Source: a virus. From it: a stretch of DNA of 25,255 nt. Below are positions 2,557 through 18,953 of the stretch, in pieces. Below the pieces are notes generated by a model, which searched no databases, had not been told where the DNA came from, and saw only the letters and a list, made by a program, of their open reading frames with translations. The first letter of the stretch is position 1, and each line of letters begins with the position of its first letter. The stretch lies in the IMG/VR virus record IMGVR_UViG_3300037826_000132, positions 1 to 25,255 of that record; one strand, 5' to 3'. Position numbers and translations under genes: made by a program.

Positions 2557-3674
2557 GTTTGCTCCAATTCCATATCAAGTTCTACCTGCTCACCATCGCT
2601 ATCAGCGCTTATTGACACGCTGTTGACACGTCCGGTATAGGTGGTGCCGTCCTCCGACTCATAATACGTCACGAGGTCGCCGGGGAAAATATCTACCCCG
2701 TAGCGCGAACCAGGAACGTCAAGCACGCGACACGCCAGCGTTGTGGTAGCGCGCTGCTCACGTAGCAGCGCAAATGCCTCGTTTGCAACCGCAACGATGC
2801 CAGACTGCTGTGTTGCGCTCTTGAAATCTTCAATCAGTCCGAACTGCTCAGTGATGAGCGCATCAATCGAAACCGCCTCTACCTGGCGGTAGCGACCTTC
2901 ACCTGGCCCGCCAATATACGCAACAGTCGTCTCGTTTTCATAGTCTATCGTGTCTGCGATTTGGTCTATGTTTCCCCGCAACCTGGAGAGCACCACGCTC
3001 GCTGTCCTATCTCTGCCGCGTTGGCCGGGGTATGTGTTCAGGGTGGGGTTGCCAGTGTAGGGTGATGTGGCGTCTGCAATCACATCAAACCCCAGCCATG
3101 TGCCCTTTTCCCAACTATCCTCGCAAAGGCTTACACAAACATCCCACACACCTTTGTATGCAAACGATCTGCGAACGGTTTCGCCACCGCTCGCGCTGGT
3201 GCCAAAATCCAGCACGCTTGACCAGTCGCGTTCGCTGATATTGAGCAGGCCGGCATCGGTAAACTGTTCGCTCACCACCTCGTGGATGAGGTCGTCCGCC
3301 GGGCCATACTTTGCCGCCTCATCCGAACCAGGGCGATTCGCCACAATGCGCCGGCGGAGGAGCGTGTTTGCCGTCTGACCGTACACGGTTAACAACCTGG
3401 CGTCCTGGTCACGCTGGTACTTGCGCACGAGCCAGAATGTCTCAAAGAGCAGCGCGAAGTTCCCGCCATCCACCGCACGCCAAACGTAGATGCGCATATC
3501 TCGACCTGGCACACCCGCACTCAAAAACTGCGTGCGCCTCTCCACCGGAAGCGTCAACTCAAGGCTACCAACACCGTTGGCATACCACTGCGCACGAAAA
3601 CTTATCCAGTCGCTCAAGAGCGCAATACGCGTGCCCTCATCAGATGCGAGCCAGATTTCATACTCACTACTCAT
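2553..3674 (-). CDS. Tail hub / ReqiPepy6 gp37-like baseplate protein
   Basis: I start at ATG 3672-3674 (ATGA overlap with the previous stop; purine-rich GGGGGG...GAGGG upstream), giving 373 aa. The N-terminus EIWLASDEGTRIALLSDWISFRAQWYANGVGSLELTLPVE, then GRDMRIYVWRAVDG and LFETFWLVRKYQRDQDARLLTVYGQTANTLLRRRIV, matches the gp37-like siphovirus tail hub family (Tal/gp27-type barrels). A C-terminal RYGVDIFPGDLVTYYESEDGTTYTGRVNSVSISADSDGEQVELDMEL matches the second barrel of the hub. This protein closes the tail tip and anchors fibres. It is followed by an ATGA overlap with the fibre gene. Confidence 0.72.
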   Translation of the reverse strand: MSSEYEIWLASDEGTRIALLSDWISFRAQWYANGVGSLELTLPVERRTQFLSAGVPGRDMRIYVWRAVDGGNFALLFETFWLVRKYQRDQDARLLTVYGQTANTLLRRRIVANRPGSDEAAKYGPADDLIHEVVSEQFTDAGLLNISERDWSSVLDFGTSASGGETVRRSFAYKGVWDVCVSLCEDSWEKGTWLGFDVIADATSPYTGNPTLNTYPGQRGRDRTASVVLSRLRGNIDQIADTIDYENETTVAYIGGPGEGRYRQVEAVSIDALITEQFGLIEDFKSATQQSGIVAVANEAFALLREQRATTTLACRVLDVPGSRYGVDIFPGDLVTYYESEDGTTYTGRVNSVSISADSDGEQVELDMELEQT

Positions 3675-4531
3675 CCCTCGACCCCCCAATACTGTTCGGT
3701 GTATGTGATGTTTGCACTGACGGAGAATGACACGTCTGTAATAATGGTGTTCCTGCCAGGTAGAAGCAACATTCTGGAAATAGCACTACTGACAGACAAC
3801 TCGCCGACCAGATCGGTGTCTATACCTGCTATTGTTTTAAAGACTTGTGGGGTAGTGGGTTCCGACAGGTCTATCGTCACTGTGTCACCGCTAGACATCA
3901 CCGGTCTTGAACCAATGTCGAATGAAACAAGGCCACCAGTTGTAGTGTTTGCTATGCTCGCAACGCTCCGTAATGGAGCGCTGCTGGTAAAGATAATGAT
4001 CGGGTATCCTGGGGCAGTCCCTCTATTCACGACGAATGTGGTTTCTGGGAAGCTTGTTACCAATTCCTGCGTGGTTGTTTCCAGTGTTTGCCAAAAAGGC
4101 CAGTCAGAAACAAAACGCAACACCACATCCACGCCATTACGATATTCCTGACTCCCGGTCAATCCATCCACATAGCGCACAGCGATCTGCCGCCCCTGCT
4201 CAGTGCTGCGCAGAAGCACCTGTCGACCGACAATGAGGCGCGCCAGGCGCGTCATTTCTCGATCTACCCGGAAAATATCATCGTTCAGAAACCGTCCGGC
4301 GATGGTGAGCACCCGCGATGGCACGCGGTACCCCTCGTATTGCCCACCGCGCCGCAGGGTGAACTCGTCAACCCGTTGTGATACTGGCGCAACTCCCAGG
4401 CCATCGAACCCCAACGCAAAGAAACCAAACGATGATAATGGATACGCGGTGCCATCTACAATCAGGGAAAGGTCTTCCAGGGCATAGCCATTGCGCAGGG
4501 CTGGCAATGTGTTGTAACGCTTGATGGTCAA
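3671..4531 (-). CDS. Second Dit-like distal tail protein
   Basis: A 286-aa protein starts with TTG 4529-4531, overlapping the preceding stop by four bases and preceded by AGGGAG six bases upstream. It has the N-terminal Dit pattern: LSLIVDGTAYPLSSFGFFALGFDG, RVDEFTLRRGGQYEGYRVPSRVLTIAGRFLN, RLARLIVGRQVLLRS. After NGVDVVLRFVSDWPFWQTLE comes a C-terminal beta domain (FPETTFVVNRGTAPGYPIIIFTSSA...), as in SPP1 gp19.1-like proteins. It lacks the carbohydrate-binding insert of the preceding gene. Two consecutive Dit-like genes may reflect duplication and specialisation into a ring protein and an arm. Confidence 0.7.
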   Translation of the reverse strand: MTIKRYNTLPALRNGYALEDLSLIVDGTAYPLSSFGFFALGFDGLGVAPVSQRVDEFTLRRGGQYEGYRVPSRVLTIAGRFLNDDIFRVDREMTRLARLIVGRQVLLRSTEQGRQIAVRYVDGLTGSQEYRNGVDVVLRFVSDWPFWQTLETTTQELVTSFPETTFVVNRGTAPGYPIIIFTSSAPLRSVASIANTTTGGLVSFDIGSRPVMSSGDTVTIDLSEPTTPQVFKTIAGIDTDLVGELSVSSAISRMLLLPGRNTIITDVSFSVSANITYTEQYWGVEG

Positions 4532-6072
4532 TCACTTCTCCCTGTTGCTGTGAGATAGCGCTCATACCAGGAGATGGCACACGTGACGCCCGCCGCTGCC
4601 GTCAGGGTGACGGTGTTGTCTCCTGACTCCAGTTCCGCTCCGATTAAATCCGATGACACAGTGATTGTGTCGCGGGCATCCAAACCATTCAGCTCCACCG
4701 TCAGCGCCTCGGTGTCGATGATGTAGTAATCCCCGCTCGTGAGCGTCTGGGTAATAGTGATTGTTGCGCTTCCGATGACAATACTGGTAATACTCCCCGC
4801 GCCAGTAAACGCAATCACGACAGACGCAGGTGCAGTCCCCTGGTATGTCACGGTGTTTGCCCCGCTGGTAATTGCCTGGCTCTGTTGCTCCACTCCACGC
4901 CAGTAGGGAGCCAGTGCAAGGAGTTCCAGTTCGATGTCCTCGCCGTAGTCGTTATCGCTATCACCCTGCATACCACCCTGGTAGATCACATCAATCTCTA
5001 CCGCCTGCGCCACATCGGCATTCGGTTGGTAGCGCAGGGTTGTGGCGGATGGTAGCGGGCGGGTGGATGGGTTGAGGAGTGACCACAAGTCGGCCCGCAG
5101 CATCTGCAGGTGCAACCATGTCTCACCCTGCAGACGCCCAGTCAGGGTGATCGTACGGGATGCCACGCGTTCGCGTGCATAGTATGCTCCTGGCAAACCT
5201 CCGTATTCGTGGCGGATAGGCTCGATAACCGGAACGAGGTGACTTACCAACCCGGTGACGATCAGTCCCTGTTTCCCCACATCCATGAGCGTTCCGCTCA
5301 GCCCTGTTTTGCGTGTGCTGGTACTGTTGTCTGGGGTGCCATTCCAAATCCAACCAGGGAAGCTGCCGTCGCCATACTCGGTGTTGATGGTGGATAGCAT
5401 CCAGGCATCAGTAATCACGTCGCTGGTGCTGGCGTCATCAGCCTCCACATACAGGCGGTAGGGGTCTGTCGTCCTCGCGTTGAATGACAGGGTGACGCGT
5501 TGCCAATCGGTTGATGCAGCTATGGATTGCGATTCAACGATGAAATTGGTGTTACCGCGCACGGTGATGCGATGTGTGCCACTGCCCCCCCGCAGGTATA
5601 CCGAGAAGAAATAGTCGGTGAATACCTCCAGATCTTCAATCTCCACATACACACCGTTGCGTGGCTCGTCTGCTACACCGGTATAACCATCTTGGATACG
5701 GATCAGTATCGCAGCACTCCGGACGCGGCGCAACATCGCAACCGAAAACGCACCAGACCATGTTGGCGTTGTTTGCTCACTGTCTGGTGCAACCTCCAAT
5801 GAGCCAGTATCATCCACCTCCACAGTGCCACCGTCCTCAACTTCAAGCGCACCATAGAGCACAGCGCTTTCCGTAGCCCCCACCGTGAATGTGTCGCCGC
5901 TCTCAACCGTGCGCGTCTCGCGCACCGGAAGGATGGATGGAAACTCAAACGAGGGAGTGGGTATCAGATTATCGGCAGGAGTGAATTGTGCAATTTGCAG
6001 CACCCCACGCTGCTGACAGAGAAGCGGGGTGTCCTCGCCCGCGAGTTCTGGTATGGAGTAGTATCGCCTCAT
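4528..6072 (-). CDS. Distal tail protein (Dit-like) with inserted carbohydrate-binding region
   Basis: This 514-aa protein is the first gene after the tape measure, in the Dit position. Residues 50-92 form a beta-solenoid-like element (TRTVESGDTFTVGATESAVLYGALEVEDGGTVEV). Residues about 105-225 look like a CBM4/9-type jelly roll (WSGAFSVAMLR..., FFSVYLRGGSGTHRITV, DWQRVTLSFNARTTDPYRLYVEADD, DAWML). Residues about 260-514 look like Dit: GLPGAYYARERVASRTITLTGRLQGETWLHLQMLRADLWSLLNPSTRPLP, then a second beta domain with SGDYYIIDTEALTVELNG. Dit forms the ring between tube and tip. Evolved Dits with carbohydrate-binding domains help host binding in other siphoviruses. The stop TGA overlaps the next gene's TTG start. 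Confidence 0.7.
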   Translation of the reverse strand: MRRYYSIPELAGEDTPLLCQQRGVLQIAQFTPADNLIPTPSFEFPSILPVRETRTVESGDTFTVGATESAVLYGALEVEDGGTVEVDDTGSLEVAPDSEQTTPTWSGAFSVAMLRRVRSAAILIRIQDGYTGVADEPRNGVYVEIEDLEVFTDYFFSVYLRGGSGTHRITVRGNTNFIVESQSIAASTDWQRVTLSFNARTTDPYRLYVEADDASTSDVITDAWMLSTINTEYGDGSFPGWIWNGTPDNSTSTRKTGLSGTLMDVGKQGLIVTGLVSHLVPVIEPIRHEYGGLPGAYYARERVASRTITLTGRLQGETWLHLQMLRADLWSLLNPSTRPLPSATTLRYQPNADVAQAVEIDVIYQGGMQGDSDNDYGEDIELELLALAPYWRGVEQQSQAITSGANTVTYQGTAPASVVIAFTGAGSITSIVIGSATITITQTLTSGDYYIIDTEALTVELNGLDARDTITVSSDLIGAELESGDNTVTLTAAAGVTCAISWYERYLTATGRSD

Positions 6073-9425: not shown

Positions 9426-9686
9426 CTATCGCTTCCGTTTACGCTCCATTTCGCGCATGTGGTCATAATCCATCACCGCCTGCATGCGCTGCCGCACGCG
9501 CCGCTCGGCCAGGATGAGGATTTGTGTGTGTTTGTCGAGAGCAAAAAATGCAGATGGATCACTAAATCCACGTTGCTGGCTCACATCCAGTATCTCCAGG
9601 AGAAGCGCCGTATCCGAGTCTGTCTCAATGCTGAAGTGTGATTTCTGTGTTGGGCATCGCCATATCGGACGTCCCTTCCACATCAT
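9426..9686 (-). CDS. Tail assembly chaperone T-like extension (frameshift partner)
   Basis: An 86-codon frame overlaps the end of the G-like gene by 62 bases and ends three bases before the tape-measure ATG. Its first possible in-frame ATG pair is 9681-9686, with no good SD. Its C-terminal part (DTALLLEILDVSQQRGFSDPSAFFALDKHTQILILAERRVRQRMQ..., ending MEMERKRKR-like basic tail) is helical and basic, as expected of a T domain that binds the tape measure. The frame is +1 (equivalent to -2) relative to the G-like frame. The frame before position about 9735 is closed by a TGA, so a shift must occur between there and the G stop at 9625. Start shown is the ORF start, not the true junction. Confidence 0.55.
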   Translation of the reverse strand: MMWKGRPIWRCPTQKSHFSIETDSDTALLLEILDVSQQRGFSDPSAFFALDKHTQILILAERRVRQRMQAVMDYDHMREMERKRKR

Positions 9687-10137
9687 CCCGAAACGACTCG
9701 GCTGCGGTTTGCACCTCCTGGTCGGTCACCCGTTCACCCTGGATCGCCTTGACCAATCGGCTCACCTCATCGTCACCAGAGCACACAACGTGAGCAATAT
9801 ATGCCGCACGCGGGGAAACATTGCCCACGTTGGTTACCGCAGCAATGACACCATGGAGCCGCCACGCTTCTTCTTCGTCAACCTCCATGTCCACGCCAAA
9901 ATCGATCATCATATAGATGGTAAGTGTGGTCAACCACTCGTTGTGTTGTGCCAGTTCTGCTCGGTAGTGAGGGTGATCGGGGTTCGGGTCGCCTGTGCCT
10001 GTGTCAATCGGTGGTGGGGGGGGTGGATGTGAGTGGCGAAGGAACATGGCAATGGTGGGAGAGACGCGGTTGAGCCGCGCCACCTCACCATTTTCAAACT
10101 CAAACACTGGTTTGTCTGGTGCTCTTCGTCCGTTCAT
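9625..10137 (-). CDS. Tail assembly chaperone (G-like)
   Basis: This 170-aa acidic protein lies directly before the tape measure, where siphoviruses encode gpG/gpGT. SD GGAG lies four bases before ATG 10137. Residues 1-45 end in a run of prolines (HPPPPPPIDTG), followed by an acidic helical region with LTTLTIYMMIDFGVDMEVDEEEAWRLHGVIAAVTN, typical of the chaperone's conserved helices, and end ...MAMPNTEITLQH. The last 62 bases overlap an open frame carrying a second part (9426-9686), the arrangement expected for frameshift-produced GT. Confidence 0.72.
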   Translation of the reverse strand: MNGRRAPDKPVFEFENGEVARLNRVSPTIAMFLRHSHPPPPPPIDTGTGDPNPDHPHYRAELAQHNEWLTTLTIYMMIDFGVDMEVDEEEAWRLHGVIAAVTNVGNVSPRAAYIAHVVCSGDDEVSRLVKAIQGERVTDQEVQTAAESFRDDVEGTSDMAMPNTEITLQH

Positions 10138-10149
10138 GATACTCCTTTT

Positions 10150-11697
10150 CTATGTAATATTAGGTTCGCCGATGAGGATAACGCCATCCTCTTCGTCTCC
10201 TGCCACCCCACCGATCACGAGATAATTAACCTGGCGGCCGGTGTCCATCACCGATGGATACGCCATCCGCGTGGCCTTGCTGAAAACTGGCAGGTTCGCC
10301 AGTCGCTTGCTGGTTGTGCTGATGTCCCAATCTTGACCACCGTCCCAACTCGTCAGGATGCGAGCAGCGGTCGGACTATCGGCAGTGGTGTGACTGACGT
10401 GCAACACCTCATCGTTGATGACAACAATGTCCGCTACGGCTCCCGTTCCTGCACCATCAAACGTTTCCGGAGCGAACCAGGTCTCTGCGCCATTTTCAGT
10501 GTAGTACAGATTACCCGTTGCGGTACCCACCCACCAGCGATACTTGTTGTGCAGCCCGACCGCCTGTATGGTTGCAGCCTCTGGTGAGGTGGTCACGCTC
10601 GCCCAGGTGCGGCCTCGGTTGTTGGACACAATGACCGCACCGTTTGCTCCAACTGCAACCAGGGTATCACCCCTGCCACTTATACGCGAGAGGTCTTCGC
10701 TCGTGGCGTCACCCGCCTCGCTCGCGGTGACACCACCAACCAGGTTGGATGACTTGTAAACATAGCCGTTCGCAGCGCTGAAAAACACCTCGCGCTGGGT
10801 GAGCACAAACACATCGCTGGCGGCGTTGGTCGACCACTCGGTCGGAGTGACCTTGGTGAGCGCGCCTGGCACACCAGTCAGTTGATTGATGGTTGCGTAG
10901 TAGTAGCAATCGGTGCAGACAATCAGGAGGTTCTCGCCAACAATACGAATAGCAACTGGCACGTCGCTCCCATCCCCGACTTGCACTTCTGTCCAGGTAG
11001 CACCACCATCCAGTGTGTAGATGTACTCGGTGGGTTCCGCGCTATACGGCACCTGGTCACTCTTAGCCAGTGCATAGATTTGTCGCGTCGGGTCAAATTG
11101 TGGGCCGCACTCCTCGCCCTGGCAGTTGTTGAGGCGACCATACGTCACATCCACAACTTCACGTGCAACCTGTGTGGTGGCCTTTTCGCCAAAGTAGATT
11201 GTCCCCACCGGATAAGGATTCTCACGAAGCCGTAGCGTCACCTCGTCCTGAATTGCCTCATCGCTATCGAACGACATGCGGTCACCGAGGTCTTTGTCAG
11301 TGACGATGCCGTAGGGTAGAACGTTGATATAGCCGTCCCATCCCCGCAGAAAATCGCCAAGTTCAGAACATGCACCACTCACCAGGTAAGCGGTAATAGC
11401 ACAACGGTTTGCCAGGAGTTGACGCGGAATGCCCTGCCGTCGCTCGCGGAATGTCAGCGTGCCCTCTGCAAGATCTGGCGGCTCCTCCATCGTGCCTACC
11501 ACAATGTATCGGCCAGGGTTGGATGGGTCATAATTATGGATTGGGTCAACACCACCGGACTGCGGAGCGGATACCCCCGTTGCAATCGTGTATGTTGCAT
11601 CCTGGCCTGCGTATTCCACAGGTGTGCCTCTTCGCGCCCCGCCGTAGGCCAGGAAGAGGCGCTTGTGTTGTGTTGTCCAGATCGGTGTTTCTGGCAT
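10150..11697 (-). CDS. Probable tail tube protein fused to Asp-box (sialidase/BNR-like) propeller
   Basis: This 515-aa protein starts at ATG 11695-11697 with AAAGGAT ten bases upstream. The ORF extends further upstream inside the previous gene, but the SD decides the start. It occupies the major-tail-protein place: after the connector, before the two chaperone frames and the tape measure. Residues 1-215 (GVSAPQSGGVDPIHNYDPSNP..., LTFRERRQGIPRQLLANRC, DGYINVLPYGIVTDKDLG, ENPYPVGTIYFGEKATTQVAREVVDVTYG) look like the beta-barrel of a tail tube or cap. From about 225 on are Asp-box repeats: 227-235 (DGGATW), 357-365 (RGRTW), 399-407 (NGAETW) and 449-457 (DGGQDW), spaced as in beta-propellers. Asp-boxes are structural, so enzyme activity is not implied. 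Alternatively the whole protein is a decorated neck or tail protein and the tube lies elsewhere. Confidence 0.6.
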   Translation of the reverse strand: MPETPIWTTQHKRLFLAYGGARRGTPVEYAGQDATYTIATGVSAPQSGGVDPIHNYDPSNPGRYIVVGTMEEPPDLAEGTLTFRERRQGIPRQLLANRCAITAYLVSGACSELGDFLRGWDGYINVLPYGIVTDKDLGDRMSFDSDEAIQDEVTLRLRENPYPVGTIYFGEKATTQVAREVVDVTYGRLNNCQGEECGPQFDPTRQIYALAKSDQVPYSAEPTEYIYTLDGGATWTEVQVGDGSDVPVAIRIVGENLLIVCTDCYYYATINQLTGVPGALTKVTPTEWSTNAASDVFVLTQREVFFSAANGYVYKSSNLVGGVTASEAGDATSEDLSRISGRGDTLVAVGANGAVIVSNNRGRTWASVTTSPEAATIQAVGLHNKYRWWVGTATGNLYYTENGAETWFAPETFDGAGTGAVADIVVINDEVLHVSHTTADSPTAARILTSWDGGQDWDISTTSKRLANLPVFSKATRMAYPSVMDTGRQVNYLVIGGVAGDEEDGVILIGEPNIT

Positions 11698-11711
11698 GGT
11701 ATCTATCCTTT

Positions 11712-12938
11712 CTAAATTGCGTATCCACCCGGCAGACGCTGCTGATTGACGTGCTTCCAAGCCAGCACCGCGCCGCGTCGTGTGCCAAACGGATTACTGA
11801 GATCTGCTGCTGATATTGCCCCGAACGCCTCGCCTGCATCGCCGCTCGTGCGGGCAAGGTCTTGCTGGAGATAGCGCCACTGTTGTCCCGCGCCCCTGCA
11901 TCCGCAAAGCTCCCGCACGGTCTGTGCAATGGCGAGATACGTGACCGTGCGCTGCCATGTCCTGTCCATTTCTCGACTGGTGAACGGGTATCCCGCCAGA
12001 TAGTTGATGACCACACGGTCCGGCGGGCGATTGCACTGCTCCCACCACCCCGTGCCAGTCCACGTGCCGTCGGTTTTTCTCGCCTGTCCAACACCCACCA
12101 CCCCCGCCGGACCATCTCGGATGCCAACACGAGCGGGAGCGGTGGCAATCGCAGCCGGATCAGTGCCAACCGGCTCGCAGCTCGCCCACGATGGAAACGG
12201 CACAGCCTCCCAAACGAGCGTGGCCTGCTCATCGGTGTTCGTGGTGCGCTGATACACGGCGATCTCTGACACAAAATTGCTATCAACCGTCGGGTTGATT
12301 GGCGTGCGCTGCACCCCTTCGTATCTGATCGGTTTCACCAATAACCATTTCCTGCCGGTGATCGTCGCTACACCGCCACTGATTGCCACCTGCACTGGCT
12401 CGATACGCCAGCGATCCATATCATCGGTGAGGCGGTCCGCATTGGTGAAGTATGCCACCACCTGGTCAGCATCGGTGACAGTGGTGGCAATTGTAGCGGT
12501 GAAGGTCTCGGCAAGGCCGTCGCCATCCTCATCACTGAACAGCACATCAGCGTCGCCAATGAGCGTGAGTTGTTCGGTTCCCGCAGCCTGGACATAATGG
12601 TCTGGGAGCTTCAATGGCAGATAGCGCCCCATCGGGTCGGTGAGATACGATCCGTAAAAACCTGGTTGGTGGGTGGTTGGCCAGGTTATGGTTTCTGACA
12701 AGTAGCGTGGAGCAGGCCAGTAATGCAGATAGTTACGGATCAATTGCTCTGCCGTCTCAATCGCGCGCCGCACTTCGTCTCGCCCCAAACGATCCGCAGA
12801 CTGCCACGCATATTCGTACACAATATCATCACAATCTGCGCGGATGGGCGTGTATGTCGTGTCGCTCAACTGCCAGAAATGCCAGGGATGATAGGAAATG
12901 ATGTATCGCAGGTGATCAATAGGCAAGAGGTTCATCAT
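11712..12938 (-). CDS. Head-tail connector/adaptor protein with large insertion
   Basis: The start is ATG 12938 or 12935 (adjacent Met codons, both with weak SD), giving 407-408 aa and overlapping the DUF1360 gene by about 20 bases. Residues 1-80 (LLPIDHLRYIISYHPWHFW, DDIVYEYAWQSADRLGRDEVRRAIETAEQLIRNYL) and the C-terminal part (PDRVVINYLAGYPF..., REMDRTWQRTVTYLAIAQTVRELCG) look like a gp6/gp15-type adaptor: helical bundles that ring the portal. Between them is a beta-rich insertion with an acidic DEDGDGLAE loop (about residues 136-144 from ATG 12938) resembling a Ca-binding dockerin/thrombospondin loop, and a TITGRKWLLVKPIRYEG strand region. Position between capsid and tail tube supports the connector role. 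It is about twice the usual adaptor length. Confidence 0.68.
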   Translation of the reverse strand: MMNLLPIDHLRYIISYHPWHFWQLSDTTYTPIRADCDDIVYEYAWQSADRLGRDEVRRAIETAEQLIRNYLHYWPAPRYLSETITWPTTHQPGFYGSYLTDPMGRYLPLKLPDHYVQAAGTEQLTLIGDADVLFSDEDGDGLAETFTATIATTVTDADQVVAYFTNADRLTDDMDRWRIEPVQVAISGGVATITGRKWLLVKPIRYEGVQRTPINPTVDSNFVSEIAVYQRTTNTDEQATLVWEAVPFPSWASCEPVGTDPAAIATAPARVGIRDGPAGVVGVGQARKTDGTWTGTGWWEQCNRPPDRVVINYLAGYPFTSREMDRTWQRTVTYLAIAQTVRELCGCRGAGQQWRYLQQDLARTSGDAGEAFGAISAADLSNPFGTRRGAVLAWKHVNQQRLPGGYAI

Positions 12939-13209
12939 CGTCAATCTCAACTTCGTCTATGATTTGACGGATCACCACAGCGGCACCTGCGATGCCAAGC
13001 CAATGCACGACCCATCGCGGCGCAACGCTCATCACGAGTGCAAACCAGAACGACAGGCACAGCGGGCAATGGATGCCACTTGCCAGGTGGGGGTATCGAT
13101 CAGCCCATGTGCGCAACGAGACCAACACATCTGCCGGGCCATCCTCATACGCGATCATGCGAGCAACGCGATAGGTTGCCAGAATGCGGAGCAGGGTATC
13201 ATGATGCAT
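12916..13209 (-). CDS. DUF1360-like membrane-associated protein
   Basis: I choose ATG 13207-13209, which overlaps the glycosyltransferase end by 11 bases and has GAGGAAGG upstream at about 10 bases, giving 97 aa (MHHDTLLRILATYR...). A longer in-frame start at 13272 lies inside the previous gene. Family pattern: an N-terminal LLRILATYRVARMIAYEDGPADVLVSLR segment, a C48-x2-C51 pair (HCPLCLSFW) and hydrophobic segments (about 52-62 and 66-83) probably embedded in the membrane, then an acidic tail (DEVEIDDDEPLAY). This matches the DUF1360 layout (tyR-la-l-i--EdGP ... CPxCLSxW). It is common in phage head-tail gene clusters, but its function is unknown. Confidence 0.68.
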   Translation of the reverse strand: MHHDTLLRILATYRVARMIAYEDGPADVLVSLRTWADRYPHLASGIHCPLCLSFWFALVMSVAPRWVVHWLGIAGAAVVIRQIIDEVEIDDDEPLAY

Positions 13210-13696
13210 TCTTGCGTGGCCTTCCTCGCTTGCGTGGTGGTGCAAAGTCGAATACATCATCGATATTGCCATCGTCCTCTTTGGTATCGGTTTCTTCCAG
13301 ATCAGGGACTACTGCCGGATCAGGTTCAGCAGGTTGTTCGTCAGTAGGCGGGTCTGGCTCCGGTTCGGGCACATGGGGCACCTCAACAGGCGCCACGTCC
13401 GACAAGGTCGGCACCACAGGCAACGGTGGGGGCACGGGATCCTGTGGCGCGCTTCGGACAGAAGGTGCAATCACTCGCAGATGCCCGCTGCGCTGGAGCA
13501 GTATGTCCACATCATCGGGGTGAACTTCCTTACATTTGTGTGATGGTGACGCACTGAATTGATAACTGCGCCCCTTCAGTCCATTGTAGCGCGTGGTGCC
13601 TTTGCGAGTGCCGGTGTAGCACATCCGTACGGTAGAACTGTTGAGACTCCGTGCGGTACTGGCGGGCTTTGCGGGCTTTCCTCCACAACAGGCCAT
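13199..13696 (-). CDS. Nested in-frame C-terminal module 'MACCGG' with own SD
   Basis: ATG 13694-13696 is codon 775 of the glycosyltransferase. It is preceded by AAGGAAGG (13707-13714), then A7 (13700-13706), giving a purine-rich SD with about 10 nt to the ATG. Translation from here would give a 165-aa protein with a Cys-Cys start, a small beta domain (residues about 24-75: YTGTRKG..., YNGLKGRSYQF, HPDDVDILL), a Pro/Glu/Asp-rich linker (about 85-150) and the GRP AT-hook at its C-terminus. The beta domain looks like small stand-alone phage proteins beginning MACCG that I recall beside capsid genes. Here it is in frame with the glycosyltransferase, without an intervening stop. It may be made as both a fusion and a separate protein. 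Confidence 0.5.
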   Translation of the reverse strand: MACCGGKPAKPASTARSLNSSTVRMCYTGTRKGTTRYNGLKGRSYQFSASPSHKCKEVHPDDVDILLQRSGHLRVIAPSVRSAPQDPVPPPLPVVPTLSDVAPVEVPHVPEPEPDPPTDEQPAEPDPAVVPDLEETDTKEDDGNIDDVFDFAPPRKRGRPRKNAS

Positions 13697-16018
13697 TTCT
13701 TTTTTTCCTTCCTTGTATGCACCATAGACATTATCAAAATACTCAACGAGTTCTGTTTTGTGGTCATCCAGGTAGCGGCGCCGGGTGCCCGCGTCCATGC
13801 GGTAGCCCACCAACGGGACGGGCACGAGATGTCCACAGATGCCAGCAGCGGCGCAACGTGCGAAGAAATCCCGCACCTCCATCGACTGCATCTGCTCGTC
13901 AAACCCGCCCACCCGACGAGCATAATCTGCGCGCATCAGCACAGTAACCAAATGACGGGTTTCGTAGAGCATAGCCACCTGGTGGTATGCCGATGCGGGT
14001 TGGACATAAGATGTGTCACCTTCCAGGAATAATGCGTGACCGTATATGTAGCGCCCGGTCTCATCGTGCGCATCCACCATTTGCTGGATTGCTCCCGGCA
14101 TCAGGTAGTCGTCGGCATCCAACCAGATGAGGAGTTCAGATTGTACATGACGCAATCCCTCGTTGCGAGCACAACCCGCTCCCTCGCCGCCTTTTGTTCG
14201 CACCACCTGGGCAAAGGGGTAGGGATAGAGAATTGCAGATGGGATGCCATATGTTGTGTCGTCTACGACAAGCACGTGCCAGTCTCGATACGTTTGCCCC
14301 ACCAAGCTCTCCATCGCGGTGGGCAGGTAGCGCTCGTGCCCAGAGCCAACCGGGATGACGACAGTGACACGCGGCTTGTGGTAGCTCAACACTAATGGTT
14401 GTTTGCTTGCGGGAGCAGCGAAAGGGTACTGTCGATCTTGCGCCCAGGGCAGCCATGTCTTCAGGTCTGGCTCAGGCTGCGAATGCCGCACACTGGTACG
14501 ATGCTGGCGATAATTATACAGCGGCTCGCGGCTTACCAGTCGCGGTTGGAACCCTATTGCTACGCCACGTAACCAAAAATGGTAATCACACGCACGGCTA
14601 TTACCCTGACTGACAGTATCCTGGTAGCCGCCAAGCCGCTCCCACATCTCCCGGCGATGCATCGCCACGCCGGGTATGAGGTTGCGCTTATGCACGAATG
14701 TTTCAAAATGGAATTCTGCATCAGGCCATACTACGGACTGGGACGATCCATCCTCGCTCATTGACCGCACGTTACTGTAGACAATCCCTAGCGTCGGATC
14801 ATCGAGGAGTGCATCATGTAGCGTCTCAACATAGCGCGGCGCCAGGGTGTCATCTGCAGCCATGTGGAACACATACGGCTGTGTTGTGACGGCTATGCCG
14901 GCGTTGACCGCACTGGCGATACCGCGATTGCTCTCGAAGCGAATGCTTCGTACCCGATCTGCATAACGCGCTACAATGGCAGCAGTGTCGTCGGTGGAGC
15001 CATCATCAACCACAATGATTTCGTCTGGCACTCGCGTTTGTGTAAGAATGCTGTCCAGGCATTGCGGCAGCCAGTGTCCATAGTTGTAGCACGTTACTAC
15101 GCACGCCACACCATGCGGCTCGTGAAACTTCCACTGATAAGCCTGCTGGTACAAATCAATATATCGCGGAATAATGGCCGCCCAGGCGTGTGCCTGGGCT
15201 GCATCACGGCAATTTGCGCCAATCTCTGCACGATGCTTGATGAGCCAATGATACCCTGCGACAAGTCCATCAATATCGCCCGGCTCCACGAGCCATCCGG
15301 TTTCCTGATGACGAACAAGTTCAGCGGTACCACCGTGATTGTACCCCAACACTGGCACCCCGCTTGCCATCGCCTCTATTGTGCTGATACCTTGGCTCTC
15401 TAGGGTGGTAGCGAGATAAATACTGGCATTCCGTATGAGTTCTCGCATGCGCGGGTATGGCACCTTGCCGGTGAGCTTCATGTGTGGCGACACATCCACA
15501 CCACCTGGGGCAAAGGTGCTGATTACCGCAATACCTCGCTTTGCGAGTTCATGTGCGGGGGTGGGGTTGCAGATGGCGTTGACACGGTATTTATTCCATA
15601 GCACATAGCCGCCATTCTCCCCCGTCCCCCAATCGTTTGTGTGAATGCCATTAGGGAGAACAGTAGGTTGCATACGCATATCACGCCGCAGCAGTTGAGC
15701 GCACCACTCTGACGGCACAGTAACACTGGCCAGTCGTCGGCGGAGATTGGCGGCGAGAGATGCACTCACTGCGTAGTCATATGCGCCCCATGATCCCGGA
15801 TCACCAGTGTAGTGGAACCCGTGCAGGTGGAGAACATCAAAGTCCTCCACCTGCTTTTTGACATACCCCACATGCATAATCACGAGATCAGCAGAGTAGG
15901 GTGTATCCACGAACTGCATGCCGTGTTCTGGGAGGTGTTGGTGGAGCGCCTTGCAAACTTGCGCAACTCCACCAACACCTCTCATATTATCAGGTCCGGG
16001 TTCCATGTACAATTTCAT
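13199..16018 (-). CDS. Three-domain glycosyltransferase (GT4-GT2-GT2) fused to a Cys-Cys virion-type module with AT-hook
   Basis: This is a 939-aa protein from ATG 16016-16018 (GAGG seven bases upstream; a GTG codon earlier is also possible). Residues 1-290 are a GT-B/GT4 domain with E207...E215 (E-x7-E in ESQGISTIE), SGVPVLGYNHGG and the TGWLVEPGD finish. Residues about 300-510 are a GT-A/GT2 domain with VVDDGSTDD (D338, D339) and MAADD at 386-390 in place of the usual DADD. Residues about 550-745 are a second GT2 domain with VVDD (586-587) and an intact LDADDYL (634-637). From residue 775 follows MACCGGK, a YTGTRKGTTRYNGLKGRSYQF segment, HPDDVDILL, a Pro/acidic linker and a C-terminal PRKRGRPRK AT-hook. 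It probably transfers sugars to virion proteins or host glycans. The domain fusion is unusual, and the DADD change in the first GT2 may reduce metal binding. Confidence 0.85.
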   Translation of the reverse strand: MKLYMEPGPDNMRGVGGVAQVCKALHQHLPEHGMQFVDTPYSADLVIMHVGYVKKQVEDFDVLHLHGFHYTGDPGSWGAYDYAVSASLAANLRRRLASVTVPSEWCAQLLRRDMRMQPTVLPNGIHTNDWGTGENGGYVLWNKYRVNAICNPTPAHELAKRGIAVISTFAPGGVDVSPHMKLTGKVPYPRMRELIRNASIYLATTLESQGISTIEAMASGVPVLGYNHGGTAELVRHQETGWLVEPGDIDGLVAGYHWLIKHRAEIGANCRDAAQAHAWAAIIPRYIDLYQQAYQWKFHEPHGVACVVTCYNYGHWLPQCLDSILTQTRVPDEIIVVDDGSTDDTAAIVARYADRVRSIRFESNRGIASAVNAGIAVTTQPYVFHMAADDTLAPRYVETLHDALLDDPTLGIVYSNVRSMSEDGSSQSVVWPDAEFHFETFVHKRNLIPGVAMHRREMWERLGGYQDTVSQGNSRACDYHFWLRGVAIGFQPRLVSREPLYNYRQHRTSVRHSQPEPDLKTWLPWAQDRQYPFAAPASKQPLVLSYHKPRVTVVIPVGSGHERYLPTAMESLVGQTYRDWHVLVVDDTTYGIPSAILYPYPFAQVVRTKGGEGAGCARNEGLRHVQSELLIWLDADDYLMPGAIQQMVDAHDETGRYIYGHALFLEGDTSYVQPASAYHQVAMLYETRHLVTVLMRADYARRVGGFDEQMQSMEVRDFFARCAAAGICGHLVPVPLVGYRMDAGTRRRYLDDHKTELVEYFDNVYGAYKEGKKEMACCGGKPAKPASTARSLNSSTVRMCYTGTRKGTTRYNGLKGRSYQFSASPSHKCKEVHPDDVDILLQRSGHLRVIAPSVRSAPQDPVPPPLPVVPTLSDVAPVEVPHVPEPEPDPPTDEQPAEPDPAVVPDLEETDTKEDDGNIDDVFDFAPPRKRGRPRKNAS

Positions 16019-16031
16019 CACGCAACCTCAA

Positions 16032-17450
16032 TTAACTGGTCGGTGAGTAGTAGGACTGCGGTGTCGTCAGCAGCTTGCCGCCATCGGTGTAGTAAGTATC
16101 GCCGGGTTCCCAGTCAGGGAAGTGCCCGCCGCTCACCGTTGTATACGCTACATTATCCAGGCGTCCAGCCAGGTGAGGCGTTCGCAATACCAGGCGCGTG
16201 CGTGCCTGCGCGGTGATTTGCAGGCAGTTGTTGAGCGGCGGCTTTTTGTGGAGGAGAAACCGCCCGCCATCCACCACCTGATAACTCCCGCCGGGCGAGA
16301 ACATTTCTGCTGTGTCGATGGGCTGTCCTGCAAAACTAAAATACTCCATATACAACACAGGCATCCGCCCTAGCGTTGTGAATGGGAGAAGGTAAATCGG
16401 ACTACTGAACACCCCGGCGCTGGCCTCTTCAGTTACTGTGTCATCGAGAATGACCGGCACACGTTGGCCGTCAATCATCAGAAACTGCCCGGTCATGGCA
16501 ATCATATCGCCCCGCATCTCGTCACGCGCCTGGGTGTTGTCACGAGCATCAATGAACTGCGTCGTGTCGTTGGTGGTCGTGGCAATACCCTCACACCCGG
16601 TGGTGTGATATGCACACGGCCACACCTCCGACAACTCGTAGAAGAGGTTCGGGTGCATCACAAAGCGCCAACTCGTGTTGGGCAGCCCTGCCTTTCGTGC
16701 GGTGTCCTGGAGGTAACGGTACATATTCGACACGCGCTTGACATAGGTCGTGCCGTTGCTGTTCACAACCAGGTTGTCCATGTCCACAACGTAGCTGTCA
16801 GCGCGGGGGCAGGCAACACCAGTGAAAACATCACGGTATCCTGTGTTGACCAGGGTGTCCAGGCCATAGAAATATTCGCGGTCTCCGTCGTTATTGGATG
16901 GGTCGCCGGTGTAGAGTTCACGTGAAAACTCATATGTCCATCCTACTGCAAGGGCATAGAGTTTAGCGGTGGCGTCCCTGGTGATCGCTGTCTGCATGGG
17001 GCCAATCGGCAACCCTGGTGCAACCCCGCTCGTCGGGTCGAGGCCCCCGAAAATCTGTAGGTCATCAAACTCGCCACGGTTGGTGTACAACCCCACCTCG
17101 GTGATGTCAATGGATTGGGTCTGCAGCCGTTGCTTGCCGAGCGGGAGCATGGTGGTGCAGATTTTCCGCGTTCCAACGGTTTTGGGGTCGTCGCATGGGC
17201 CGGTAGGGTCATCACCACTGTTCGCTGTCTGCCCCGTAAACAAGGCGTAATTCGGGTTGGCATAGCGCGTCTCCATAACCGGCAGTTGCGCAATCAGCCC
17301 CTGCACCGGCAGTTGCATGGCGGTAAACACTGCGCGATCCAGGCCAGGTTGCGCGAATAGACCACCGGGGCCAGTTGGATGATATGCCGACGGTGTACTC
17401 ACGGTTTTAAACGCTGTAGCAAGCGCGTTAAGGATTTGCTGCTGGTCCAT
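16032..17450 (-). CDS. Major capsid protein (HK97-fold candidate)
   Basis: This 472-aa protein directly follows the protease/scaffold gene, with a GGAAAGGGGG purine block as ribosome site and an ATG abutting the stop. The N-terminal about 60 residues (helical, MDQQQILNALATAFKTVSTPSA) could be a delta-like arm. The rest is mixed alpha/beta, with elements expected of the HK97 fold: MQTAITRDATAKLYALAVGWTYEFSRELYTGD resembles a spine helix preceding the A-domain, and RFVMHPNLFYELSEVWP resembles the 'Mxxxxxxxl' A-domain segment. The C-terminus RLDNVAYTTVSGGHFPDWEPGD is Tyr/Gly-rich. Six Cys residues are present (DDP and KIC regions, CPRADS, PCAYHTTGCEG). The next gene, 11-14 nt downstream, is the glycosyltransferase, so this capsid is a plausible glycosylation substrate. 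Confidence 0.8.
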   Translation of the reverse strand: MDQQQILNALATAFKTVSTPSAYHPTGPGGLFAQPGLDRAVFTAMQLPVQGLIAQLPVMETRYANPNYALFTGQTANSGDDPTGPCDDPKTVGTRKICTTMLPLGKQRLQTQSIDITEVGLYTNRGEFDDLQIFGGLDPTSGVAPGLPIGPMQTAITRDATAKLYALAVGWTYEFSRELYTGDPSNNDGDREYFYGLDTLVNTGYRDVFTGVACPRADSYVVDMDNLVVNSNGTTYVKRVSNMYRYLQDTARKAGLPNTSWRFVMHPNLFYELSEVWPCAYHTTGCEGIATTTNDTTQFIDARDNTQARDEMRGDMIAMTGQFLMIDGQRVPVILDDTVTEEASAGVFSSPIYLLPFTTLGRMPVLYMEYFSFAGQPIDTAEMFSPGGSYQVVDGGRFLLHKKPPLNNCLQITAQARTRLVLRTPHLAGRLDNVAYTTVSGGHFPDWEPGDTYYTDGGKLLTTPQSYYSPTS

Positions 17451-17993
17451 CTACATAGCCCCCTTTCCAAAGAGCAGGTCGGAGATCAGGGTCTCTGGCG
17501 AGTTCCCGTTTGCGGCATTCTGTTGCTCCCTGAAGCACTTTGCCTCTTCTTCGCTCACCAGTGTGGTCTTGCTGGTGCTCGCGGAATGCCCGGTCATCGC
17601 ACGCGGTAGCGGCTCCGCTTCTGCCATGGCCTTGATTTGCGCCTGCAGGTTTGCCACCTGCGTTTGCAGCGCCGCTACCGGGTCGGTGGTTGACTCCCCT
17701 GGGGTTTCCTTCTTGTCGTACCCCTTCATCTCTTCCAACGCTTCCACCAGCGGAGAGATAGCCTCGGCTACCGCCATGGCGATCATCTGGTAGGTTTTCT
17801 GGTCGGCCTCGCTCATACCCCCACCGCCGTCTTCCATCTTGTCCTCTTCGCCTTCCATCTTGTGCCGAATATGTTCCTGTTTTGCTGTTTGTTCGGCACT
17901 GAACATATTTGCTTTCAGGCGATTGAGCGCTTCCTGTCCCGTTGCATCCTCACCGAGCAGGTGGCGCAGATGCAGTTCTTGTTCTTCTGTCAT
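17451..17993 (-). CDS. Nested in-frame scaffold protein (internal start within protease gene)
   Basis: ATG 17991-17993, codon 321 of the protease gene, is preceded by a perfect AAGGAG (18000-18005) with a six-base spacer. Translation from here gives a 180-aa highly charged protein (MTEEQELHLRHLLGED...) that lacks the protease domain and contains the acidic EGEEDKMEDGGGG linker and the coiled coil. This mirrors lambda C/Nu3, where scaffold is made from an internal start in the protease gene so that free scaffold outnumbers the fusion. The SD is stronger than that of the full-length gene, whose ATG at 18953 has only a weak GAGG-like site. The function is inferred from position and composition. 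Confidence 0.75.
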   Translation of the reverse strand: MTEEQELHLRHLLGEDATGQEALNRLKANMFSAEQTAKQEHIRHKMEGEEDKMEDGGGGMSEADQKTYQMIAMAVAEAISPLVEALEEMKGYDKKETPGESTTDPVAALQTQVANLQAQIKAMAEAEPLPRAMTGHSASTSKTTLVSEEEAKCFREQQNAANGNSPETLISDLLFGKGAM

Positions 17994-18953
17994 TTTGGTC
18001 TCCTTAACTGTCAATGACGTAAATCGGTTTGATGCCTTGTGCTTCGGGAGCAGAGAGCGCTCAACCCGACGTATCCAACTATATACCCCGTCTCTGTCTG
18101 GTTCCCACACGAGGTGCTCGAAACCGATAGAGACGCCAATTTCGCCGGCTTTTTCCGCAAGGCGCTGCCCTGCCACCGGGTCGTGGAAAGTGCCGCTCTC
18201 GATCAGGTAGCGGCCATCTATTGCATTAAAATCGCAGGTGCCTAGCTCGGCGTCCGGTACATGCCACCACAGGAGTGGTCCGTACTCACCGGTCTCGTAA
18301 GCACGGGCGGCATCTGCTGTAAGTGCAGCCTTGCTGACAATCTCACCATCCCGATCCTCATACGCCGACGATGAGATGGCGAGCCATCGGTAGTCTCCGT
18401 TGGCATCCTTGAAAACCATCGCCAATGGGGCAATGGGTGCGGTTTTGTGTGTCTTCTCTGTTTTTTTGTCCGCCGCATCCATCTGGCGCACACGTGCCCG
18501 CGCCCAGGAAAACCCCTCATCGCCGCCCCACCCCTGCCAGGCTTGCCACCCTTTGCCCTGGTCGTCCCACGTGGAGCCGTCCTTGTTGACTTCGTGGCGC
18601 TGAAAAAAAGAGAGCATACGCCGTACAACATCAGGAGAGAGAGTCTGGCGATTGATCAACTGGCGGGCACGCGCCAACCCGACGCTGGTCATACCGCGTT
18701 GGGATTGCGGCTTGTCGGCTCGAACTTCCAGTGCGCGGCGGGCATTTTCGGCCATCGCTTGGGTAGGACGAAAGTTGATGTGATCGTATTTTTTAGGTGC
18801 TTTGCGTGTGGTGCCGTAGTAGGCAGCGTTCAGCGCGTTCAGGTGTCGCTGCGCACGCTCCTGGCTCTCGTGGCAACCGCCAGGTATTGGCGCGGATGAG
18901 CCGCGCTTCACCACACACCATCGGTTATTCTGTTGTGCGATTTTCCAGGGCAT
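17451..18953 (-). CDS. Prohead maturation protease fused to C-terminal scaffold
   Basis: This 500-aa protein has four visible regions. Residues 1-48 form a small PWKI...CVVK...GGCHES element common at the start of phage head proteins. Residues 50-158 are a charged domain ending WDDQGKGWQAWQGWGGDEGFSWARA, known from many phage proteases and portals. Residues about 175-320 are an HK97-type (U35-like) serine protease core with H231 (LLWWH) and S275 (GVSIGF) as probable catalytic residues. Residues 321-500 are a highly charged scaffold with a predicted coiled coil (VAALQTQVANLQAQIKAMAEA, about 425-445). The protease cleaves scaffold and capsid delta domains after prohead assembly. A separate scaffold start lies inside the gene at 17993. 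The stop TAG abuts the capsid ATG. Confidence 0.85.
   Translation of the reverse strand: MPWKIAQQNNRWCVVKRGSSAPIPGGCHESQERAQRHLNALNAAYYGTTRKAPKKYDHINFRPTQAMAENARRALEVRADKPQSQRGMTSVGLARARQLINRQTLSPDVVRRMLSFFQRHEVNKDGSTWDDQGKGWQAWQGWGGDEGFSWARARVRQMDAADKKTEKTHKTAPIAPLAMVFKDANGDYRWLAISSSAYEDRDGEIVSKAALTADAARAYETGEYGPLLWWHVPDAELGTCDFNAIDGRYLIESGTFHDPVAGQRLAEKAGEIGVSIGFEHLVWEPDRDGVYSWIRRVERSLLPKHKASNRFTSLTVKETKMTEEQELHLRHLLGEDATGQEALNRLKANMFSAEQTAKQEHIRHKMEGEEDKMEDGGGGMSEADQKTYQMIAMAVAEAISPLVEALEEMKGYDKKETPGESTTDPVAALQTQVANLQAQIKAMAEAEPLPRAMTGHSASTSKTTLVSEEEAKCFREQQNAANGNSPETLISDLLFGKGAM

Follow-up and report, generated by a model that had tools for sequence, protein, structure and literature searches.

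Glycosylation of capsid and tail-tube proteins has been described for mycobacteriophages (Freeman et al. 2023, as cited in PMC11256854, PMC11600133 and PMC12619734), and the glycosyltransferases (GTs) of cluster F and O phages are credited with acting on both kinds of protein (Freeman et al. 2023, as cited in PMC11600133 and PMC12619734). In Mycobacterium phage Bombitas (Omega group/cluster J), five separate GT genes, a methyltransferase gene and a UDP-glucose dehydrogenase gene lie between the genes for the major capsid protein (MCP) and the head–tail adaptor. Few phages have been shown to glycosylate their virions, and the means by which phage enzymes reach their acceptor are an open question, addressed here through IMG/VR virus record IMGVR_UViG_3300037826_000132, a 25-kb stretch of DNA that we call the window. 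Its open reading frame (ORF) at 13199-16018 encodes GT4, GT2 and GT2 domains (GT2a and GT2b) that continue into a small C-terminal module, the C-module. The design is real, conserved and hitherto unnamed: a phage head-region module, with an internal start of its own, is fused to GTs of one, two or three domains. We favour, with modest confidence, the reading that the gene encodes an enzyme that glycosylates the virion and is tethered to the head as it assembles, with the C-module as a nested product of the same frame.

Pfam profiles recognize the GT4 C-terminal domain (PF00534, E=3e-18) and two GT2 stretches (PF00535, E=3.7e-51 for GT2a). AlphaFold2, run on a 64-sequence family alignment, predicts a GT-B domain, two GT-A domains, a small folded C-module (residues 796-849) and a disordered tail (853-939), with a mean predicted local distance difference test score (pLDDT) of 87.4 and a predicted template modelling score (pTM) of 0.83; Foldseek matches include chondroitin polymerase (E=5e-27), heparosan synthase, SpsA and BshA. 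The first domain belongs to GT4 by its GT-B fold, EX7E motif, GT4 profile and structural match to BshA, and GT2a belongs to GT2 by its GT-A fold, GT2 profile and matches to K4 chondroitin polymerase (K4CP) and SpsA. No transmembrane segment was found in the protein. An earlier note, made from the letters of the DNA, had placed a 939-residue ORF at 13199-16018 and read GT4, GT2 and GT2 in one chain; the coordinates proved exact, and the domain order is upheld by Pfam, the AlphaFold2 fold and Foldseek.

Near-invariant motifs run through the family: EX7E in GT4, DADD and ED in GT2a, and DADD and E(D/E) in GT2b. The window protein is the only exception at A387 (D387A, GT2a) among 70 aligned members (D in 69/69 others), and it is alone in having C477 (E477C, GT2a; E in 68/68 relatives) and V715 (D715V, GT2b; D or E in 66/66 relatives). 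Its GT2a has neither an intact DxD nor an intact ED, keeping D389 and D478, which we take to be the metal ligand and base expected of GT2 enzymes; its GT2b keeps DADD and, with V715 in place of the acidic ED/EE residue, has presumably lost the expected base. The AADD that the earlier note saw in the first GT2 domain is a real departure from the family and, on the aligned sequences, is a lineage-specific loss that affects GT2b as well. Sequencing error is an unlikely cause, since E477C requires three base changes. The three catalytic domains of the earlier note are all present by type, but GT2a and GT2b lack active-site residues here and the GT2b loss had gone unnoticed; with GT2b also affected, a count of three active domains may not hold in the window phage. 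The GT4 domain looks intact in sequence, and the glycan of the window phage may be shorter or altered, given the GT2 losses.

Turning to relatives, single-protein pattern scans of viral and genome collections with the GT or the MCP returned no match, as did a C-module DNA pattern scan; an alignment of distant GT2 sequences succeeded. A loose GT2 alignment scan of IMG/VR recovered about 30 contigs with the entire domain chain, and two further scans brought the family to 70 distinct members, 64 of which share less than 85% mutual identity and exceed 700 aa. Family identity to the window GT is 28-45%. Isolated phages gave GT2/GT4 fragments only, none spanning 80% of the GT protein; the search for the same domain order that the earlier note had suggested was thus rewarded by about 70 uncultured phage contigs but by no isolated phage. 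Of the 67 homologues whose 3' end is intact, 63 have the C-module in frame within the same ORF—they are not, as that note had allowed, always host-envelope enzymes devoid of the module—and the remaining four (L209, L218, L220 and L401, where L-numbers label homologous loci on other contigs) have a single in-frame TGA at the junction. One chain lacks the GT4 part (L219), and another locus encodes GT4 as a separate upstream reading frame (L224). A second lineage has the order GT2-GT2-C-module (L231, L232, L240, L242, L260 and L272; L267 has one GT2), and single-GT2-C-module genes occur on Chloroflexota contigs (L443, L446). In L446:1728-3539, directly after the MCP gene, a single ORF holds GT2b, an M-GCCG junction and the C-module, followed by another long C-terminal stretch that by eye resembles a glycosyltransferase.

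Fusions are common in compact phage genomes, and four relatives have a stop at the junction; the fusion and its internal start might then be incidental, with two neighbouring genes joined in frame, the old ribosome-binding site (RBS) of the second retained and no co-assembly. We consider this unlikely: 63 of 67 homologues remain fused across 28-45% identity, the one-, two- and three-GT versions share the junction, and the four TGA cases, with no usable start past the stop, seemingly need read-through too. In the window, a run of seven A residues at 13700-13706 (GGAAAAAAAGAAATG) lies between the internal ribosome-binding sequence and its ATG; it is a possible slippage site and is not conserved in relatives. 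An assembly error at this run as the origin of the fusion was rejected because more than 60 other homologues are fused.

Across the family, the C-module is preceded by a junction motif, M-x-C-C-G-G or M-x-C..C, situated at a Shine-Dalgarno (SD) sequence. The C-terminal Cys-Cys of the earlier note is present (C777, C778) and conserved, with C in 59/60 and 59/62 residues aligned there; the internal start found here at this junction did not figure in that note's account. The GT gene's own start, which has a GAGG-like RBS, scores -6.8 kcal/mol, similar to the -7.6 kcal/mol of the internal start. We scored 63 members, the window included, for a strong junction SD, defined as a duplex of <= -8 kcal/mol at the in-frame junction start. 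Such an SD was found in 44/63, against 5.7 expected if the junction were like other in-frame starts (maximum 13 in 2000 draws); the junction is the strongest internal SD of its gene in 31 members (6.8 expected), and a control region 300 residues upstream held 0 strong SD sequences against 5.9 expected. One- and two-GT2 fusions have the same M-CC junction, with SD values of -7.4 to -10.3. A conserved internal in-frame RBS and start ahead of the module, as in a nested enzyme/module gene, is thus found family-wide and is moderate in the window. On these signals, a separate C-module protein is probably made as well.

In L216 and L363, the fused copy is directly followed by further free C-module genes, each with its own SD. 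Tandem free copies, one or two per locus, were located at L216:12635; L360:9172, 9336; L361:8584, 8748; and L363:8578, 8766, several of them beginning M-x-C-x-C immediately past the stop. TAG read-through between tandem C-modules was rejected for L216 and L363, where the second copy has its own SD. Possibly, the C-module is itself the acceptor, such that the fusion glycosylates itself or the free module as a glycan-bearing head decoration protein; this idea is suited by the extra module genes in tandem right after the fused copy and by the flexibility of both the long Pro-rich tail and the linkers that join the Cys-Cys to the core, but the linker is short in some members, and we rate the idea as improbable.

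In the four relatives with a junction stop, the TGA (L209:12356-12358, L218:12329-12331, L220:12350-12352 and the same site in L401) occupies the alignment column of the junction Cys of other members (RRG*GGN versus RRSC). The C-module is open beyond it, and no usable start or SD was found after the stop. A hairpin with G-U in the loop follows about 20-28 nt after the TGA; these hairpins resemble selenocysteine insertion sequence (SECIS) elements, and only that of L209 stands out against mononucleotide shuffles. Genome-wide TGA recoding was rejected for L209, L218 and L220, whose compared genes have no other in-frame TGA. The sites are candidates for selenocysteine incorporation or programmed read-through, which would place a putative site of this kind within a phage structural operon.

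The C-module core comprises approximately 55 aa and is predicted to be beta-rich with one helix (pLDDT 91-95). Its structure has no significant match in PDB or BFVD, the module is absent from PHROGs, and tblastn gave no match in isolate phages or plasmids. The AT-hook that the earlier note placed at the C-terminus is weakly supported in the window tail (PF02178 E=0.027, below its cut-off), although basic, helix-hairpin-helix (HhH) or E3-binding tails recur in relatives. In L232, L260, L267 and L213, the C-termini are swapped among AT-hook-like, HHH_5, E3_binding (PSBD) and other small helical domains.

The setting of the gene is consistent. The GT ORF of the window starts 13 nt past the MCP stop. 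Most of the 70 family loci comprise only 6-10 kb, yet 55 have an MCP homologue on the same strand upstream, and none has one downstream; the connector lies downstream in 58 loci, with 59 offering at least 2.5 kb of downstream flank. The GT gene directly follows the MCP gene in the window and L223, while most other loci have 1-8 genes between. By Pfam, the 110 genes of the MCP–connector intervals include GT2 (16), Methyltransf_24 (13), DegT aminotransferase (10), epimerase/dehydratase (7) and sulfotransferase (4) members, together with acetyltransferases and others. The interval is a sugar-building island within the head block, and GT genes lie between MCP and adaptor as in a virion-glycosylating system, with MCP and connector assigned by synteny. 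The earlier note's placement between major capsid and connector holds as a place in the head gene block, but the protein names come from gene order only: neither MCP nor connector has an identifying match in Pfam, PHROG or PDB, and against known MCPs the window protein gives only a weak HK97-type motif alignment, to the Bombitas MCP. The MCP family (26 members aligned), without a sequence match in PHROG, Pfam or PDB, is a candidate new MCP family.

On what, then, would the enzyme act? Among 40 family contigs, some of them fragments so that absence is incomplete, Bac_transf initiators and Polysacc_synt flippases were each found in none, and the positive controls worked; the initiator and flippase of a lipid-linked envelope glycan pathway are thus missing from these relatives. 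Together with the lack of a transmembrane segment, this speaks against an envelope pathway that is complete in itself. One rival reading is a moron that remodels the host envelope, for receptor masking or superinfection exclusion, and is merely located in the structural operon. In its favour, GT4/GT2 enzymes are typical of envelope glycan synthesis, phage GT families are filed as morons, and the bifunctional GT2-GT2 part is structurally similar to capsule polymerases. Such a role is unlikely in our estimate, given a GT without transmembrane segment, 40 contigs without lipid-carrier initiator or flippase, a fixed location flanked by the putative MCP and connector genes, and the recurring fusion with a phage-only module.

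A DNA acceptor fares no better. Some viral GTs are known to hypermodify DNA (Pyle et al. 2024, as cited in PMC12619734), the window has a ThyX gene, and the tails of relatives are of DNA-binding type (HHH_5 E=5e-11, AT-hook-like), so a basic, AT-hook or HhH tail could serve as a DNA-binding handle while the GT decorates hydroxymethylated bases. However, a ThyA-type synthase/hydroxymethylase, the co-encoded partner of a DNA hypermodification GT, was found in 0/40 family contigs (positive controls worked; some contigs are fragments) and ThyX in 3/40, which argues against DNA hypermodification; the gene also has DegT, epimerase and sulfotransferase genes as its neighbours in the head block, away from replication genes. 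We regard this alternative as very improbable. Because the evidence for envelope and DNA is negative and the mycobacteriophage GT blocks offer a precedent, a virion protein is, on this analysis, the most likely acceptor.

We therefore return to the proposed head-tethered virion-glycosylation enzyme. A soluble cytoplasmic multi-domain GT of the late head operon would build a short glycan on a virion protein during assembly, and its C-terminal module would be a small protein of the phage head region. Initiation at the normal start would yield the enzyme–module fusion, and at the conserved internal in-frame start the free module; the fusion, as a minor enzyme-bearing form of the module, could be drawn to the assembling head via the shared module. 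That a free module is made, that the module is a head component, that a glycan is carried on the virion, and which protein bears it are all points that we infer. Several observations weigh against this reading. The virion glycan and its acceptor are inferred steps, head-component status for the C-module derives from position and recurrence, and the databases searched hold no module homologue of known function. The junction amino-acid sequence accounts for part, not all, of the family-wide SD signal, since synonymous-codon shuffles reach 24.6 members with a strong junction SD (maximum 32 of 200) versus 44 observed. The moderate internal SD of the window ranks below several chance sites under strict spacing and not above synonymous shuffles, and both GT2 domains of the window phage may be inactive.

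As to host, the MCP profile was found in 1/400 Chloroflexota genomes and 8/396 genomes in the same class. Actinomycetota was rejected as host, the profile matching 0/297 of its genomes. Two Chloroflexota contigs (L445, L449) encode a near-full-length GT chain with C-module, and other such contigs encode shorter versions. The family probably infects Chloroflexota, an assignment from binned contigs that is not proof for the window phage. A fuller scheme, which we offer only tentatively, is that a widespread, probably Chloroflexota phage lineage makes a free head module and a minor form with one to three GT domains, co-assembled onto or into the procapsid, giving the particle a glycan synthase of its own, and that in one sub-lineage the junction Cys is UGA, giving a selenoprotein or read-through product. 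The family suggests that its phages anchor sugar-building enzymes to their own particles: a phage-only module fused to one, two or three GT domains, and apparently also made separately, would be a direct targeting mechanism. A profile of M-CC-G plus C-module could serve as a marker for finding self-glycosylating phages in metagenomes.

The main genes of the window, all on the minus strand, comprise ThyX, TerS/TerL, portal, two to three small head genes, protease/scaffold and putative MCP; the GT gene, a DUF1360-like gene, the putative connector, a BNR-propeller protein and tail chaperone-like genes; and tape measure, Dit-like and minor tail genes. Coordinates of the principal features are collected in Table 1. 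The phage ThyX (24154-24957) has an atypical signature, RHWSMHNGGEW...SRRY versus RHRxxSxN. At 10150-11760, a BNR/sortilin-type beta-propeller occupies the slot expected for the major tail protein; it is kept across the family, with about 40% identity to its nearest relatives. Two overlapping genes ahead of the tape measure (9426-10137) resemble the tail assembly chaperones G/GT, their overlap being without a canonical slippery heptamer. Two Dit-like (distal-tail) genes stand in succession at 3671-6072, the first-transcribed one having a long N-terminal extension.

Table 1. Features of the glycosyltransferase gene and its immediate neighbours in the window.
Feature	Coordinates	Strand	Remarks
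GT4-GT2-GT2-C-module fusion gene	13199..16018	-	939 aa; ATG at 16018; stop codon 13199-13201
GT4 (GT-B) domain, residues 1-298	15125..16018	-	EX7E (E207, E215) intact, invariant in 67/67 relatives
GT2a (GT-A) domain, residues 302-530	14429..15115	-	Family LDADD is MAADD (A387); family ED is CD (C477)
GT2b (GT-A) domain, residues 549-772	13703..14374	-	LDADD intact (634-637); family ED/EE is EV (V715)
Internal Shine-Dalgarno-like sequence AAGGAAGGA	13706..13714	-	9 nt before in-frame ATG at 13696; duplex -7.6 kcal/mol
C-module reading unit from internal start M775 (MACCGG...)	13199..13696	-	165 aa
C-module core fold, residues 796-850	13469..13633	-	Beta strands and one helix
Disordered Pro/acidic tail, AT-hook-like end KRGRPRK	13202..13462	-	
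Putative MCP	16032..17450	-	Synteny; weak HK97-type motif similarity; upstream of GT gene across family
Putative head maturation protease/scaffold	17451..18953	-	
DUF1360-like small gene	12916..13272	-	One membrane-type segment; overlaps GT gene 3' end; adjacent in most relatives
Putative head–tail connector	11712..12950	-	Synteny; downstream of GT gene in 58 relatives

Compared with described systems, the locus is closest in layout to the virion-glycosylation blocks of mycobacteriophages (Omega/cluster J, such as Bombitas; Che8; cluster O), with which it shares GT and sugar genes between MCP and adaptor. Those blocks encode separate GTs without a C-module, whereas here one chain joins three GTs to a module with an internal start; the two sets of phages are unrelated, and those described here probably infect Chloroflexota. 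DNA-modifying viral glycosyltransferases resemble the window GT in being phage-encoded and in the DNA-binding-type tails of its relatives, but a hydroxymethylating synthase is missing from the 40 relatives. In structure, the best matches are E. coli K4 chondroitin polymerase and Pasteurella heparosan synthase (E down to 5e-27), which likewise have two GT-A domains per chain; the window GT differs by an N-terminal GT4 domain, the phage C-module and active-site losses, and its low whole-chain TM-score reflects another domain packing. In bacteriophage lambda, the nested protease–scaffold genes C/Nu3 use an internal in-frame start to yield an enzyme–module fusion and a free module. The likeness to C/Nu3 is one of principle, the nested start; here the enzyme is a glycosyltransferase, the module is unrelated, and co-assembly is a proposal.

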